From Acuticoccus sp. I52.16.1 (GTDB lineage Bacteria; Pseudomonadota; Alphaproteobacteria; Rhizobiales; Amorphaceae), in NCBI RefSeq assembly GCF_022865125.1, contig NZ_CP094828.1, positions 2,046,001 to 2,110,000 of the forward strand: 64,000 bases of DNA. Direction: 5' to 3'. A program made the position numbers and the translations under genes. Under the pieces are notes generated by a model. The model did no database searches. It was not told where the DNA came from and saw only the letters and a list, made by a program, of their open reading frames with translations. This document shows, piece after piece, positions 41,042 through 49,138 of this stretch (position 1 is its first letter; each line of letters opens with the position of its first letter).

Positions 41042-41611
41042 TCAGCGCGGGGCGCGCTTGGCGAGGATGCGCTGCAGGGTGCGGCGGTGCATGTTGAGGC
41101 GCCGCGCCGTCTCGGAGACGTTGCGGTCGCACATCTCGTAGACGCGCTGGATGTGCTCCCAGCGCACCCGGTCGGCCGACATCGGGTTCTCCGGCGGCTC
41201 CGGCCGTTCGGCGCCCTCGCGCGTCAGCGCCGAGAACACCTCGTCCGCGTCCGCCGGCTTGGCGAGATAGTCGACCGCGCCGAGCTTCACGGCGGTCACC
41301 GCCGTGGCGATGTTGCCGTAGCCGGTCAGGATCACGGCCCGCGCATCCGGCTTGCGGCGACGGATCCGCTCCACGACCTCGAGCCCGTTGCCGTCGCCCA
41401 GGCGCATGTCGACCACCGCATAGTCCGGCGGGTTGCGGTCCGCCAGCTGGCCGGCGTCCTGTGCGCTCTCGGCCACGTCGGTCACGAAGCCCCGCTTCTC
41501 CATCGCCCGCGCCAGGCGCTGGCCGAATGCGGCATCGTCGTCGACGATCAGCAGCCGTGTTCCGTCCACGGCCTTCGTCGGTGCGACCTGCGGCATGGCA
41601 TCCATGCTCAT
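41042..41611 (-). CDS. regA: Redox response regulator RegA/PrrA/ActR
   Basis: A 189-residue response regulator: receiver domain 19-135 with Asp68 (DYAVVDMRL) and Lys near LAKPAD, then a Pro-rich linker and a Fis-like helix-turn-helix (NVSETARRLNMHRRTLQRIL, residues about 164-183). The short Fis-type output and the sequence are diagnostic for RegA/PrrA/ActR, the global redox regulator of alphaproteobacteria controlling respiration, carbon and nitrogen fixation. It lies 72 bp downstream of its kinase gene. Confidence 0.95.
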   Translation of the reverse strand: MSMDAMPQVAPTKAVDGTRLLIVDDDAAFGQRLARAMEKRGFVTDVAESAQDAGQLADRNPPDYAVVDMRLGDGNGLEVVERIRRRKPDARAVILTGYGNIATAVTAVKLGAVDYLAKPADADEVFSALTREGAERPEPPENPMSADRVRWEHIQRVYEMCDRNVSETARRLNMHRRTLQRILAKRAPR

Positions 41612-41683: not shown

Positions 41684-42976
41684 TTAATGACGCTCCGGTA
41701 GCATCGCCCGCAGCGTGCGCCGCAACCACGTGACGGTGACGGTCGCCCCGCCGCGCGCCTCGAACGTCACCGTCGCCCCGGTCCGCTCCAGCAGCGTCTT
41801 GGCGATGAAGATGCCGAGGCCCATCCCCCCGCCCCGCTGATCCTCGCCCCGGCGCGACACGTACGGGTCGCCGATCCGGTCGAGCACGTCGTCGGCGAAA
41901 CCGGGACCGTCGTCGGAGATGACGATGGTGAGGCGCTCCTCGCTCCAGGTCGCGGTGATGCGAACCAGCGTCTCCGCGAAGTCGACCGCGTTCTCGATCA
42001 GGTTGCCGAGGCCATAGTGGATCGCCGGGTTGCGCGCCACCACCGGCTGGTCCCCCATGTCGCCTTGCAGGACCACGTCGATCTCGACGCCGACACCGCG
42101 GTGCGGCTCGGCGACCTCCTCGATCAGCGTGCGCACGTTGAGGCGCACCAGCGGGCTGTCGGAGTCCTCGCCGAGGTTCTTCAGCTGGCCCAGAATCTGG
42201 CGGCACCGCTCGGTCTGCGAACGCAGCAGCGCGACGTCCTCGGCGAGCGGGCTCTCGGGGTCGAGCTCGCGCTCCATCTCCTTGGCGACGAGCAGAATGG
42301 TGGCGAGCGGCGTTCCCAGCTCGTGCGCGGCGGCCGCGGCGAGCCCGTCCAGCGCGTGCAGGTTCTGCTCGCGTTGCAGGATGATCTCGGTCGCGCCCAG
42401 CGCGTCGGCGAGTTGGCGGTTCTCCTCCGAGACGCGGAAGGCGTAGCTGCCCATGAAGATCAGGCTGCACACCAGCGACAGCCAGATGCCGCCGATGAAC
42501 AGGAACGGCGGGCTATAATGCTCGCCGCTGTACCAGGGCAGCGGCTCGTGGGCGACGACCAGCATGGTCGCCGAGAGAAGCACGAGCGCCCCCAGCGTAA
42601 ATGTCCGGCTGGCCGACAATGTCGTCGCCGAAACCATCACCGGCGCGATCAGCAACAACGCGAACGGATTGGTCAATCCGCCGGTCAGCCCTAGCTGAAA
42701 GGCGAGCTGGGCGATGTCGAACGCCATCACGCCGGCGGTCCAACCTTCCGTCATCCGGCGGTTGTCGGCGAATTTCACGCGGAGGAAGACGTTCGACCAT
42801 GCCGACAAGGCCACGAGACCCAGGCAGGCGGCGAGCGGCATGTCGAAGTCGAGGAACACGCCGACGAACAGGATCGCCGTCAACTGCCCGAGGATGGCGA
42901 GCCATCGCAGCAGGAGCAGTGTCCGGACGCGGACCACCCGGTCTCGTGCGGTGAGGACGGCGGTACCTTCGATCAC
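41684..42976 (-). CDS. regB: Redox sensor histidine kinase RegB/PrrB/ActS
   Basis: A 430-residue membrane kinase. About six N-terminal membrane segments include the ubiquinone-sensing motif GGLTNPFALLLIAPV (99-113). The H box AAAAHELGTPLATI carries His218, and the redox-active cysteine of the family lies at Cys258 (TERCRQIL). The ATPase part has NLIENAVDFA, SDDGPGFADDV and GGGMGLGIFIAKTLL. It reports quinone and redox state to RegA. I chose the GTG at 42976 with GGGAGG upstream; a longer form from an ATG at 43090 overlaps the divergent gene's leader. Confidence 0.93.
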   Translation of the reverse strand: MIEGTAVLTARDRVVRVRTLLLLRWLAILGQLTAILFVGVFLDFDMPLAACLGLVALSAWSNVFLRVKFADNRRMTEGWTAGVMAFDIAQLAFQLGLTGGLTNPFALLLIAPVMVSATTLSASRTFTLGALVLLSATMLVVAHEPLPWYSGEHYSPPFLFIGGIWLSLVCSLIFMGSYAFRVSEENRQLADALGATEIILQREQNLHALDGLAAAAAHELGTPLATILLVAKEMERELDPESPLAEDVALLRSQTERCRQILGQLKNLGEDSDSPLVRLNVRTLIEEVAEPHRGVGVEIDVVLQGDMGDQPVVARNPAIHYGLGNLIENAVDFAETLVRITATWSEERLTIVISDDGPGFADDVLDRIGDPYVSRRGEDQRGGGMGLGIFIAKTLLERTGATVTFEARGGATVTVTWLRRTLRAMLPERH

Positions 42977-43051
42977 TCTTCCCCACACCTCCCGGATCGC
43001 GGCCGCATACGGCGGGCAAACTTGCCAAAACACATCATGAGCGCGATATGT

Positions 43052-43066
43052 TGCGGTGCAGCATGC
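43052..43066. promoter_or_regulatory. TGC/GCA-rich motif, candidate PhaR site
   Basis: TGC-GGT-GCA followed by GCATGC sits in the 131-bp divergent region between regB and the PHA depolymerase gene, about 45 bp before the latter. PhaR regulators of PHA genes in Paracoccus and Rhodobacter bind TGC-rich dyads of this type. This is a motif resemblance only. Confidence 0.3.
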
Positions 43067-43107
43067 GCGGCGCCCCGAGTTCGGCGCCACAACACGGTCG
43101 AGGTTCC

Positions 43108-45489
43108 ATGTATTATCAACTCTACGAGCTGAACCACGCTTTCCTCAGCCCGGCGCGTGCACTGAACGACGCTGTCCGCTTGTACTACAAGAATCCGCTG
43201 AACCCCCTCACCTACACCCAGTTCGGACGGCAAGTCGCCGCCGCGACCGACGTGTTCGAGCGCATCACCCGGCGCTACGCCAAGCCGGAGTTCGGGCTCA
43301 CCCATACCGACGTCAATGGCCTGCGCGTCGGCGTCACGGAAGAGATCGTCTGGCAGCGGTCGTTCTGCAAGCTCATCCACTTCAAGCGCGACCTGCCGGA
43401 GGGGATGCCCGAGCAGCCGAAGCTCGTCATCGTGGCGCCGATGTCGGGCCATTATGCGACGCTGCTGCGCGGCACGGTCGAGACGCTGCTGCCGCACTTC
43501 GAGGTGCACATCACCGACTGGGCCGACGCGCGCATGGTGCCGATGTCCGCCGGGACGTTCGATTTCGGCGACTATGTGGACTATGTCGCCGATATCACGC
43601 GCCATTTCGGCGGCGACGTGCACCTCGTCGCGGTGTGCCAGCCCACGGTGCCGGTCTTCGTCGCCATGTCGATCCTGGAGCAGGGCGGCGAGGTGGCGCC
43701 GAAGTCCGTCACCATGATGGGCGGTCCGCTGGACACCCGCGAAAGCCCCACCGAGGTCAACACATACGCCGCCAAGCACGACCTCGACTGGTTCCGCCGC
43801 AACGTCGTCATGACCGTGCCGCTACCGCATCCGGGCTTCATGCGCCCGGTCTATCCGGGATTCCTGCAGCTGACCGGGTTCATGACCATGAACCTCGACC
43901 GTCACCTCGCCGCCCACTACGACTATTTCGACCACCTCGTCGACGGTGACGGCGACAGCGCGGAGAAGCACCGCGAGTTCTACGACGAATATCTCTCGGT
44001 GATGGATCTGACGGCCGAGTTCTACCTCGAAACGGTGGACTACGTGTTCCTACGCCAGCTGCTGCCGAAGGGACTGATGACGCATCGCGGCCGGAAGGTG
44101 GACCCCGGCGCGATCACGCGGACCCCGATCTTCACGGTCGAGGGTGAAAAGGACGACATTTCCGGCATCGGCCAGACGCGCGCGGCGCATCGGATGACGC
44201 CGAACCTCCCGGCCGCCCGCCACCAGCACTACGAGCAGCCCAGCGTCGGCCACTACGGCGTGTTCAACGGCTCGCGCTTCCGCAAGGAAATCGCGCCGCG
44301 CATCGTCGAGTTCGTGTACCGCTGGGACGATGACGGCGCCTACCCGGCGCACAACGGCGGGATCACGCCGGAGATCGTCGAGGGCATGGTCGCCGAGGCG
44401 GCGCACGACATGCCGCCGCGGACGAGCCGGCGCAAGATGGTGCTGCCCGTGGCGCACATCGGTGCCGAGGCGGTCGCCTACAGCTTCGGCGCGGCGTCCG
44501 ACAGCATGGAGGTCCAGCCCGACTTCACCAAGCTGCCCGAGACGATGAAGAGCGCGGCACGGATGATGAACCGCCCGTTCGACTGGTCGGCCGGCTTCGC
44601 GGCCGAGACCGCCGAGGCGATGACCGCAGCGGTCGAGGCGGCGATCTCCAGCACCAGCGCGGCGTTCGAATCCGCCGTCGACGCGACCGAGACCGCCGCC
44701 GACACGGGGCAGGAAATGGCCGAGACGCTGGCCGGCGCCCTGGCGCGCAACTCCGAGGCGCTGGCCGCCTCGGCGATGGAGTTGACCCGCGTCACCGCCG
44801 AGGATATCGCCGGCGTCGCCAACCTCGCCGAGATCGTCGCCGCCACCGAGGCGCCTGACGTCGCAACGCCGACACTCCCCGAAGCCGCCGAGGCCGAGGA
44901 GACCGGTGCGCAGGAGCTGACGGCGGAGGTCTCCCCGAACGAGGCCGAACCCGTAACCGGTGCCGCGCAGCTCGAACCGGCCCTCACGGACACCGCGGTG
45001 GCGACAGAACCGCCGGCGCCGGATGAGGTGACCGCGCAGGAGCCGGCCGCCGAGGTCCCCGCCGGCGAGCCGGAAACCGTCTCCGTCGCCGCCGAGACCG
45101 CGCAGGCCGACGAGGGTGAGCCGGCGGGCGCGGACACGGAGGTGGCGGCAGAGCCGCCCGTGCCGCAGGTTACCGCCGCGGAACCGGGCATGGCGGATGA
45201 CCCCGCCGCCGAGACCGAGGCCACGGCCGCCGGTGCGGCCGTTGAGGCAATCGGCACGGCTCACGGCGGGGCCGCTCGGAAGGAGGCCGGCGCCAAGGCG
45301 GCTAAGTCGAAGGAAGACGCGCCGGCTCCGAAGACCCGGACGAAGCGCTGGACGACGCGCAAGGCCTCGTCGGTGAGCGACAGCACCGTCTCCGACGCAC
45401 CGCAAGCCGCGGACGGCACCGCCGAGCCGACACCGCCGGCCGACAAGCCACGCCCCCGCCGCCGCACCACGCGCAAGCCGCGAAACTGA
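43108..45489 (+). CDS. phaZ: Intracellular PHA depolymerase with long phasin-like/basic C-terminal extension
   Basis: Residues 1-408 are a standard intracellular polyhydroxyalkanoate depolymerase: YYQLYELNHAFLSPAR, VAPMSGHYATLLRGTVETLL, the nucleophile box VAVCQPTVP (Cys177), EGEKDDISGIGQT (Asp349/350) and VGHYGVFNGSRFR (His382). It would mobilise stored PHA. Usual proteins end here. This one continues for about 385 residues: an Ala/Glu-rich helical stretch (about 470-580), a long acidic Pro/Ala/Glu linker (about 580-750), and a basic tail with RTKRWTTRK and PRPRRRTTRKPRN. That order resembles PhaF/PhaM-type phasins that tie granules to DNA. The frame is open throughout. Divergent from regB. 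Confidence 0.93.
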   Translation: MYYQLYELNHAFLSPARALNDAVRLYYKNPLNPLTYTQFGRQVAAATDVFERITRRYAKPEFGLTHTDVNGLRVGVTEEIVWQRSFCKLIHFKRDLPEGMPEQPKLVIVAPMSGHYATLLRGTVETLLPHFEVHITDWADARMVPMSAGTFDFGDYVDYVADITRHFGGDVHLVAVCQPTVPVFVAMSILEQGGEVAPKSVTMMGGPLDTRESPTEVNTYAAKHDLDWFRRNVVMTVPLPHPGFMRPVYPGFLQLTGFMTMNLDRHLAAHYDYFDHLVDGDGDSAEKHREFYDEYLSVMDLTAEFYLETVDYVFLRQLLPKGLMTHRGRKVDPGAITRTPIFTVEGEKDDISGIGQTRAAHRMTPNLPAARHQHYEQPSVGHYGVFNGSRFRKEIAPRIVEFVYRWDDDGAYPAHNGGITPEIVEGMVAEAAHDMPPRTSRRKMVLPVAHIGAEAVAYSFGAASDSMEVQPDFTKLPETMKSAARMMNRPFDWSAGFAAETAEAMTAAVEAAISSTSAAFESAVDATETAADTGQEMAETLAGALARNSEALAASAMELTRVTAEDIAGVANLAEIVAATEAPDVATPTLPEAAEAEETGAQELTAEVSPNEAEPVTGAAQLEPALTDTAVATEPPAPDEVTAQEPAAEVPAGEPETVSVAAETAQADEGEPAGADTEVAAEPPVPQVTAAEPGMADDPAAETEATAAGAAVEAIGTAHGGAARKEAGAKAAKSKEDAPAPKTRTKRWTTRKASSVSDSTVSDAPQAADGTAEPTPPADKPRPRRRTTRKPRN

Positions 45490-45674: not shown

Positions 45675-45765
45675 GAGCAGTTCGCGCTCGGAATGAACCG
45701 CTGTGGGATTCCCGAATCAGCGGAAGTCTGATTCAGCATCATGGCTGGCGATGGGGGGGCCAGTC

Positions 45766-46115
45766 ATGATGCCCAAGCTGCTCTCTGACGATCTTCGCCT
45801 TCGCGTGGTTCGCGCCATCGACGATGGAATGTCCCGCCGGCAGGCCGCGGCGCGGTTCGAGGTCGCCCCGTCCACGGCGATCCGATGGTACGAGGCTTGG
45901 CAACGCACCGGCTCATGCCGCGCCAAGCGCCAGGGCGGCGACCGCTGGTCCCACGTCACCGAAGCCCACGCCGAGCGCATCCTCGCGATCCTAGACGGCA
46001 CCGGCGACATCACCCTGGTCGAGCTGAAGGCAAGGCTCGGTGAGAGCGGCGGCACGGTCTCCATCTCGGCGCTGTCGCGCTTCTTCCGTCGCCACGGGAT
46101 CACGCGCAAAAAAAG
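45766..46115 (+). pseudogene. IS630-family transposase, 5' part
   Basis: The N-terminal helix-turn-helix part of an IS630 transposase: LLSDDLRLRVVRAIDDGMSR, AAARFEVAPSTAIRWYEAW and VSISALSRFFRRHGITRKK. The frame is cut by the IS1595 insertion at the run of seven A plus G (46108-46115). In the uninterrupted element this A7G run joins two frames offset by -1, as in IS630 relatives that use ribosomal frameshifting. As it stands it runs only about ten codons into the inserted element. Confidence 0.88.
46108..46115 (+). repeat. Left copy of 8-bp target duplication AAAAAAAG
   Basis: Identical to 49202-49209 on the other side of the IS1595-family element. Eight bases is the duplication length known for IS1595-family insertions. 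The sequence is also the putative frameshift site of the IS630 transposase. Confidence 0.9.
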
Positions 46116-46154
46116 GGCGATTATGCACTTTGCAAACCGTCGGTAAACCGGTAG

Positions 46155-48205: not shown

Positions 48206-49138
48206 TCAAGGCGCTGTTCGATACGTCAACCGCTTCCCGACGATCCCAGCCAACGCTCGCACATTGCGCCCAGCATCGTCGCAACCGTTCGCGATACGGT
48301 TGTTGTAGCGGAACTCAAACTCGGCGACGTAGCGGTGCAAGTGCTTCTTAGCGCAGTGCTGGTAGACGCCCTTCATGCCGCGTTTGAAGATCGAGAAAGA
48401 GCCCTCAATCGTGTTCGTGTGGAACTCGCCACGGCCATACTCGCCCGCATTGTGGCGGACGATTTCATGCGCGGCGAACTCGCGGCCAACCTTCGTGTAG
48501 TAGGCGGCCTCATCGGTCATCAGCGTGGCTTCCTTGGCGAGGTTCGTGCGGACGATATCGCCCACCGTCGTCGCCTTGAGGTCGTCCACGATCATCATGC
48601 GCGTCATGCCGGTGTTGCGCTCCACCAGCGCCATGACCTTGTGCTTGTGGTGGTAGCCGCGGCCCTTCTTCTCGCCCTTCGGCTTGATGGTGCGGTCGTT
48701 GCCGATGAACGTCTCGTCAACTTCGACAACGCCACCGTCAGAGCCGAACGGGGCGAGATCGCCAGAGCGCATCGCCTCGCGAATGCGGTGGGCGAGGAAC
48801 CACGCGGTGCGGTACTGGACCTCAAGCACGCGGTGGAGCTGGTGCGCGCTGATGCCCTTCTTGCTGGACGTCATCAGGTAGACCGCCTGGAGCGCCTTAT
48901 GCAGCGGGATGCGCATGTGCTCGAACACGGTGCCCACCTTCACGGTGAACTGCTTCTTGCACTGACCGCACTTGTGCAGGCCGTAGCGGACGCGCTTCTC
49001 AGGGTTCGCCTTGATCTTCGAGATACGCTCGAAACCGCCGCAGTGAGCGCACACCGGCTGCCCGCCCCAGATCACCTCTTCGAGAAACGCGAAGGCGGCT
49101 TCTTCGTCGTGGAAGTAGGGCTTGGAATGGACGGACAT
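48206..49138 (-). CDS. IS1595-family (ISXO2-like) transposase
   Basis: A 310-residue transposase. The N-terminal zinc ribbon has CAHCGG and HKCGQCKKQF. A helix-turn-helix region follows (KGISAHQLHRVLEVQYRTAW). The DDE-type catalytic core shows VVEVDETFIGND, TLMTDEAAYY and HTNTIEGSFSIFKRGMKG (Asn/Glu region). It appears intact, so the element may be mobile. It reads toward the passenger genes and ends 76 bp from DUF3800. Confidence 0.95.
   Translation of the reverse strand: MSVHSKPYFHDEEAAFAFLEEVIWGGQPVCAHCGGFERISKIKANPEKRVRYGLHKCGQCKKQFTVKVGTVFEHMRIPLHKALQAVYLMTSSKKGISAHQLHRVLEVQYRTAWFLAHRIREAMRSGDLAPFGSDGGVVEVDETFIGNDRTIKPKGEKKGRGYHHKHKVMALVERNTGMTRMMIVDDLKATTVGDIVRTNLAKEATLMTDEAAYYTKVGREFAAHEIVRHNAGEYGRGEFHTNTIEGSFSIFKRGMKGVYQHCAKKHLHRYVAEFEFRYNNRIANGCDDAGRNVRALAGIVGKRLTYRTAP

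Follow-up and report, generated by a model that had tools for sequence, protein, structure and literature searches.

What does an intracellular PHA depolymerase do with 385 residues beyond its catalytic domain? The question is raised by the phaZ gene of Acuticoccus sp. I52.16.1, which lies in the stretch of 64,000 nucleotides analyzed here (positions 2,046,001 to 2,110,000 of contig NZ_CP094828.1, hereafter the window) and forms a single frame on the forward strand, 43108-45489, that stays open over 793 residues and meets a stop only at its end. In the available text of a review (PMC13052382), PhaM, PhaF and PhaH bind the PHA granule with their N-terminus and DNA with their C-terminus, the contact with DNA being made by histone-like domains in PhaM and PhaF and by a helix-hairpin-helix (HhH) domain in PhaH. 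The original prediction for the Acuticoccus protein was that a phasin-like helical part and a basic tail, fused to the depolymerase, might let one protein degrade PHA and bind both granule and DNA.

A Complete Depolymerase with a Long C-Terminal Tail

The catalytic part of the protein is complete, as had been proposed. Residues 3-405 match TIGR01849 (PHB_depoly_PhaZ, NCBIfam) with 571.2 bits and an E value of 1e-171, the cut-off being 300.75, and residues 205-405 match PF06850 (Pfam), while Cys177, Asp349, Asp350 and His382 are unchanged in every row of alignments of 10 and of 12 sequences. We take these residues to be catalytic and to correspond to those of the R. eutropha numbering. The domain has Ka/Ks values of 0.12-0.20 and is modelled with mixed confidence (block pLDDT 34-91; AlphaFold, 12 rows); no PDB chain matched the full protein at E 0.001. 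Position 43108 is where the alignment of the relatives' proteins begins, an alternative in-frame ATG lying 20 codons upstream at 43048. Judged by its sequence, the gene encodes a complete intracellular PHA/PHB depolymerase of predicted activity, hereafter PhaZ1, the untailed second depolymerase of the same genome being named PhaZ2. PhaZ1 has in common with TIGR01849 PhaZ (PhaZa1 of Ralstonia eutropha) the whole catalytic domain and the conserved Cys, Asp and His, but differs from it by the 385 additional C-terminal residues, which do follow in the same frame. The parts of the protein are these:

43108..44331, + strand: PhaZ catalytic domain, residues 1-408 (TIGR01849, PF06850, invariant C177, D349/D350 and H382)
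44332..44862, + strand: Ala/Glu-rich helical segment, residues 409-585 (helices predicted; common to two sister genomes)
44863..45312, + strand: acidic Ala/Glu/Pro low-complexity linker, residues 586-735 (Ala 29%, Glu 17%, Pro 11%, net charge -26; predicted disordered)
45313..45486, + strand: basic C-terminal end, residues 736-793 (Lys+Arg 24%, net charge +7)
45331..45363, + strand: first basic cluster, KTRTKRWTTRK, residues 742-752 (translation)
45445..45486, + strand: second basic cluster, KPRPRRRTTRKPRN, at the very C-terminus, residues 780-793 (translation)

The order of a helical, an acidic and a basic part after the depolymerase is borne out, with refined boundaries: the helical part stops near residues 580-585, and the Lys/Arg tail consists of the two clusters above, several acidic residues lying in the stretch between them. 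Net charge is -3 over residues 409-465 and -14 over residues 466-585 (Ala 27%, Glu 12%). AlphaFold (12 rows) places five helices between residues 421 and 580, mostly at pLDDT 28-45 with values of 76 and 55 around 421-440, and predicts no order beyond residue 580, the linker having block pLDDT of about 28-35; the helices are thus retained at low confidence, while linker and basic end are predicted to be disordered. Searches of residues 409-793 returned no phasin and nothing at all in Pfam up to E 1, the sole family match being a stray one to TraP in NCBIfam (E 0.085).

When the tail is shuffled, its last 40 residues are seldom as basic as in the real protein (p 0.012); the position of the basic end is thus non-random. 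The tail as a whole is acidic (net -36) and these 40 residues reach just +3, which counts against a tether. We also gauged how unusual such a C-terminus is by calling genes crudely in 464 kb of the source genome (20 stretches plus the window), which gave a sample of 324 genes, PhaZ included, though the caller surely misses some. A 100-residue stretch as simple as that of PhaZ occurs in two of these genes, a net charge of at least +7 in the last 20 residues in five and of at least +8 in the last 60 in 11; PhaZ alone combines the simple stretch with the charge of its last 20 residues.

The Tail in Acuticoccus: Conserved Feature or Drifting Extension

Long PhaZ tails, of 127-545 residues, are found in all eight Acuticoccus genomes, two of them (L008 and L009) being cut by contig ends. 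The tail is thus not peculiar to the genome in which it was first noticed, and relatives keep the fusion, throughout the genus sample as regards the long tail, yet in three of its genomes alone as regards the helical segment. PhaZ2 is present in six of the eight genomes and in both genomes of the sister genus, and each of these eight copies, that of the source genome included, ends untailed.

A cluster of Lys and Arg stays close to the C-terminus in all six uncut tails. The net charges of their last 40 residues are, in order, +3, +10, +8, +3, +10 and +1, and the p values against shuffles, in the same order, 0.012, 0.001, 0.0002, 0.099, 0.0002 and 0.0028; five of the six are thus at or below 0.012 and one is at 0.099 (Fisher 8e-11, with related tails treated as independent). 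The low charges in L007 (+1) and L005 (+3) count against a tether. For the cut tails p is 0.003 in L009 and 0.26 in L008, which has no basic excess at its cut. The available text of PMC5658603 describes AAKP-like repeats in the DNA-binding part of PhaF. Words of this type (AKP, AAK, PAK, KPA) number 26 in the tail of G005 versus 9.1 in shuffles and 18 in that of G001 versus 5.5, a level equalled by none of 2000 shuffles, and are slightly enriched in G007; the window tail shows no excess (1 versus 1.5) and is devoid of AAKP-like repeats.

The strongest alternative to a tether is drift: the tail would be a disordered, rapidly changing extension such as other proteins of these bacteria bear, with a general role (solubility, spacing, turnover) or none. 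Somewhat unlikely as we consider it, this explanation would account for the wide range of tail length inside one genus, for a linker and basic end that can hardly be aligned between its genomes, for the emptiness of the structure prediction after residue 580 and for the Ala/Glu/Pro linker, similar to that of PhaZ, on NuoE of the same genus. Substitution rates speak partly in its favour: Ka/Ks is 0.95-1.18 over residues 409-450, against constraint there, and reaches 1.46 over residues 736-793 in one of three pairs, which counts against a tether, although the alignment of low-complexity parts is unsure; over linker and basic end together the values are 0.52-0.78, with one interval extending to 1.13 and the same uncertainty of alignment. 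Against drift stand the constant position of the Lys/Arg cluster, the rarity of such tails among the sampled genes, the lack of any tail on PhaZ2 and the values for the helical segment, namely 0.62-0.67 over residues 409-585 and 0.53-0.56 over residues 449-585 with 95% intervals below 1, which place the helical core under purifying selection.

No Sign of Phasin Homology in the Helical Segment

The helical segment (residues 409-585) is 57% identical to its counterpart in G005 and 49% to that in G002. A profile search of 397 genomes of the order, with at most eight candidates scored per genome so that misses are possible, found it in three (G000, G002 and G005), plus one weak match out of context. 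The latter, in G298 outside the genus (E 2.7e-4, with an internal stop), adjoins frames that by eye resemble a TetR regulator and a hydratase, and was discarded as a chance match.

The segment had been called phasin-like, a term that does not survive as a statement of homology: Pfam, NCBIfam, a sequence search of the PDB and profile comparison reveal no relation to phasins. Against the phasin loci of 15 related genomes (27 rows) the hhalign probability was 1.3, and the best HMM E values were 8 for the window tail and 0.021 for L007, the latter with a bias above its score. Foldseek gave a best E of 0.67 with a low-confidence model, hence no fold match. The source genome encodes a PHA synthase and a separate phasin of the Phasin_2 family (PF09361); no phasin of PF05597 was found in it.

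A functional equivalence might nevertheless be considered, in which the segment would serve as an internal phasin or depolymerase activator, binding the granule surface and opening it to the enzyme, with the basic end being secondary. The model for this is ApdA, which acts in trans for PhaZ1 of R. rubrum; ApdA and PhaP1 are reported as necessary for PhaZ action (available text of PMC5658603). The segment-only model, built with one homologue, does show two helices, 35 and 47 residues long and similar to those of the full model (block pLDDT 38-66 and pTM 0.32; 28-76 in the full model), and one stretch of 18 residues has a hydrophobic moment of 0.62. However, the moment is 0.07-0.37 in the rest of the segment, no relation to phasins emerged from the searches above, the profile search found the segment in three genomes only and a separate phasin is already at hand, so that we regard a built-in activator as quite unlikely.

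C-Termini of PhaZ1 in the Order and Class

The C-termini were read at 121 depolymerase loci, which after removal of repeats (L041-L043 and L045) left 117, namely eight PhaZ2 and 109 PhaZ1, four of the latter (L008, L009, L016 and L100) being cut. The sample includes 80 named loci that are the best 80 of 584 confirmed matches, 75 of them Hyphomicrobiales by title and five unplaced. A tail was classed as basic when 9-89 residues long with a net charge of at least +2 in its last 30, and as absent when shorter than 9 residues. Since the rows contain near-copies (L015/L067 and L052/L053), the following fractions of this sample are no population estimates. A short basic tail of 12-82 residues (median 16) is carried by 71 of the 109 PhaZ1 and an HhH tail by 17; nine, comprising the eight of Acuticoccus and L082, have a long tail, seven have none, which counts against a tether, and five have other ends. 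Several rhizobial PhaZ (e.g., L075, L081, L101, L112 and L117) end in a conserved peptide resembling KRVIKGGKS.

The basic ends of PhaZ rise above the background of neighbouring genes: a net charge of at least +3 in the last 15 residues is found in 55 of the 79 uncut named PhaZ (from the best 80 of 584) versus 74 of 574 crudely called neighbouring genes. At 28 loci of the class outside the order, 0-39 residues follow the catalytic domain (fewer than 9 in 20 of them) and HhH tails are absent; five have a basic tail by our rule, which counts against a tether, so that basic tails are commoner in the order, yet not private to it.

A quick PhaZ tree was built from 77 of the 117 rows, the named basic rows having been thinned to a third. 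It requires at least eight changes for HhH tails, and well-supported branches force two of these. Acuticoccus forms one clade (100) beside its HhH-bearing sister genus (93). The long tail of L082 (Chenggangzhangella methanolivorans) measures 249 residues, with a net charge of +15 in the last 60; the two nearest rows in the tree carry HhH tails, and this tail may have arisen by a frame change.

Neighbourhood of phaZ

Upstream of phaZ lie two genes on the opposite strand, which we take to be RegB/RegA-like:

41684..43090, - strand: histidine kinase gene, divergent from phaZ (HATPase_c, HisKA)
41042-41611, - strand: response-regulator gene, following the histidine kinase gene (Response_reg)

Relatives of both genes occur near phaZ in 14 of the 80 named loci (best 80 of 584), hinting at a possible regulatory link. 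The region downstream of phaZ is rich in mobile elements, as it contains a helix-turn-helix frame of transposase type by eye (45703-46146) and a transposase of the IS1595 family (48206-49138).

The HhH Tail and Its Relation to PhaH

HhH-tailed PhaZ were found in Stappia, Roseibium, Pseudovibrio, Rhodobium, Afifella, Hansschlegelia and Chthonobacter, as well as in both genomes of the sister genus of Acuticoccus (L010 and L011). The five of them compared with NCBIfam (L052, L059, L073, L088 and L126) all give matches to the C-terminal region of the PhaH model NF045508, with E values of 7.8e-15 to 1.2e-19, their scores being well under the cut-off for the whole protein. Compared with Pfam HHH_5, one of three such tails scores above the gathering score and two just below, a closeness to the cut-off that counts against a tether. 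The window PhaZ itself matches neither PhaH nor HhH; NuoE gives the sole HhH match in the source genome.

A full PhaH above cut-off is absent from 16 genomes of the order (eight of Acuticoccus, two of the sister genus and six others), where all PhaH matches are partial and most lie over the C-terminal half of the model; among 14 control genomes two were positive, Caulobacter vibrioides among them, with one above cut-off. Several of these bacteria thus bear a PhaH-like tail on the depolymerase and lack a full PhaH above cut-off.

The same HhH tail is found on NuoE in all eight Acuticoccus genomes, with one HhH match each (identity by eye, confirmed by NCBIfam for the source genome). In relatives it also occurs on ribosomal proteins L21, S2 and L19 (one of each by NCBIfam), the carriers at loci L125, L142, L151 and L132 being NuoE, L21, S2 and L19, respectively, and that at L131 a small membrane protein by eye. 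Moreover, the HhH tails of PhaZ score higher against the model tails of NuoE, S2 and usually L21 than against PhaH. The HhH tail that follows low-complexity linkers is, on these comparisons, a mobile alphaproteobacterial tail not specific for PHA, which again counts against a tether.

Its presence on ribosomal proteins, together with the segregation of charges inside a single Acuticoccus tail, would also suit a basic end that clusters the enzyme by binding the acidic linker of an adjacent molecule, or that binds another acidic partner such as polyphosphate, RNA or ribosomes; this we hold to be improbable, as the published granule tethers bind DNA according to the available text of the review (PMC13052382). 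A sequencing or assembly error joining two genes is ruled out by the same fusion in the separately assembled A. yangtzensis (L045) and in G005 and by the codon-wise constraint in the helical core.

Comparison with Known Tethers and Proposed Function

A basic low-complexity C-terminus of the PhaF/PhaM type is present in the window PhaZ, though after an acidic linker. PhaF of Pseudomonas putida and AlgP have such a C-terminus too, and two sister-genome tails share their AKP-type words; the N-terminal part of the window protein differs in being an enzyme and not a phasin, and its tail has a long acidic linker in place of AKP repeats. PhaM, for its part, is presumably not a hydrolase. PhaH of Caulobacter crescentus (NF045508) has a C-terminal part resembling the HhH tail of the relatives' PhaZ, but is itself a phasin, its biology being taken here from the available text of the review, whereas the window PhaZ lacks HhH. 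The histone-like, DNA-binding C-terminus of PhaM of Cupriavidus necator is likened to the basic end of the window protein by the description in that text. Searching titles and abstract openings, we found no description of a tailed or HhH-bearing PhaZ, which may be in print nonetheless, most subscription papers being outside this search; the terms polyhydroxy, PHB, granule and depolymerase did not occur in the available text of the A. yangtzensis genome paper (PMC5747140).

The best reading of these data is that the window PhaZ carries an interchangeable, putative nucleic-acid-binding tail. The ends of PhaZ fall in the same two classes, histone-like and HhH, as those of the known tethers, which makes a nucleic-acid contact of the enzyme's own the economical reading. 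Because relatives have PhaH-matching HhH tails or short basic tails at the same place, this reading is favoured more than by the comparison with phasins, and such ends suggest, short of proof, that PhaZ is tethered to the chromosome. A nucleoid tether is plausible, and the relatives motivate it better than the window alone does. We infer nucleic-acid binding, granule tethering and a common job for the different tail types from these likenesses.

For the window protein itself, we tentatively propose, at a little less than an even chance, a PhaZ1 with a long, fast-evolving appendage. Its catalytic domain would sit on the PHB granule. Residues 409-735, helical and then acidic, would act as spacing elements, with a possible further contact between the helices and the granule, and the basic end would bind nucleic acid weakly and without specificity, the nucleoid being its most plausible target. 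The protein would then act like PhaF, PhaM or PhaH, but with the tether built into the enzyme, and in related genera the same role might be played by the C-terminal HhH tail or the short basic peptide. The wider proposal, possible but doubtful, is that PhaZ1 of the order is a granule-to-nucleoid tether coupling breakdown with placement, in which three interchangeable putative nucleic-acid-binding modules (a short basic peptide, an HhH tail as on Caulobacter PhaH and a long PhaF-like tail) would have repeatedly replaced one another.

None of the granule tethers named in the available text of the review (PhaF, PhaM and PhaH) is a depolymerase. If the enzyme that mobilises PHA were itself tethered, carbon release would take place next to the chromosome, and the inheritance of granules might come to depend on this enzyme. 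The swap of tails between sister genera offers a natural experiment for this, and PhaZ2, which has no tail, supplies an internal control. Such a dual role would also bear on the engineering of PHA producers, in which removal of phaZ is common practice.
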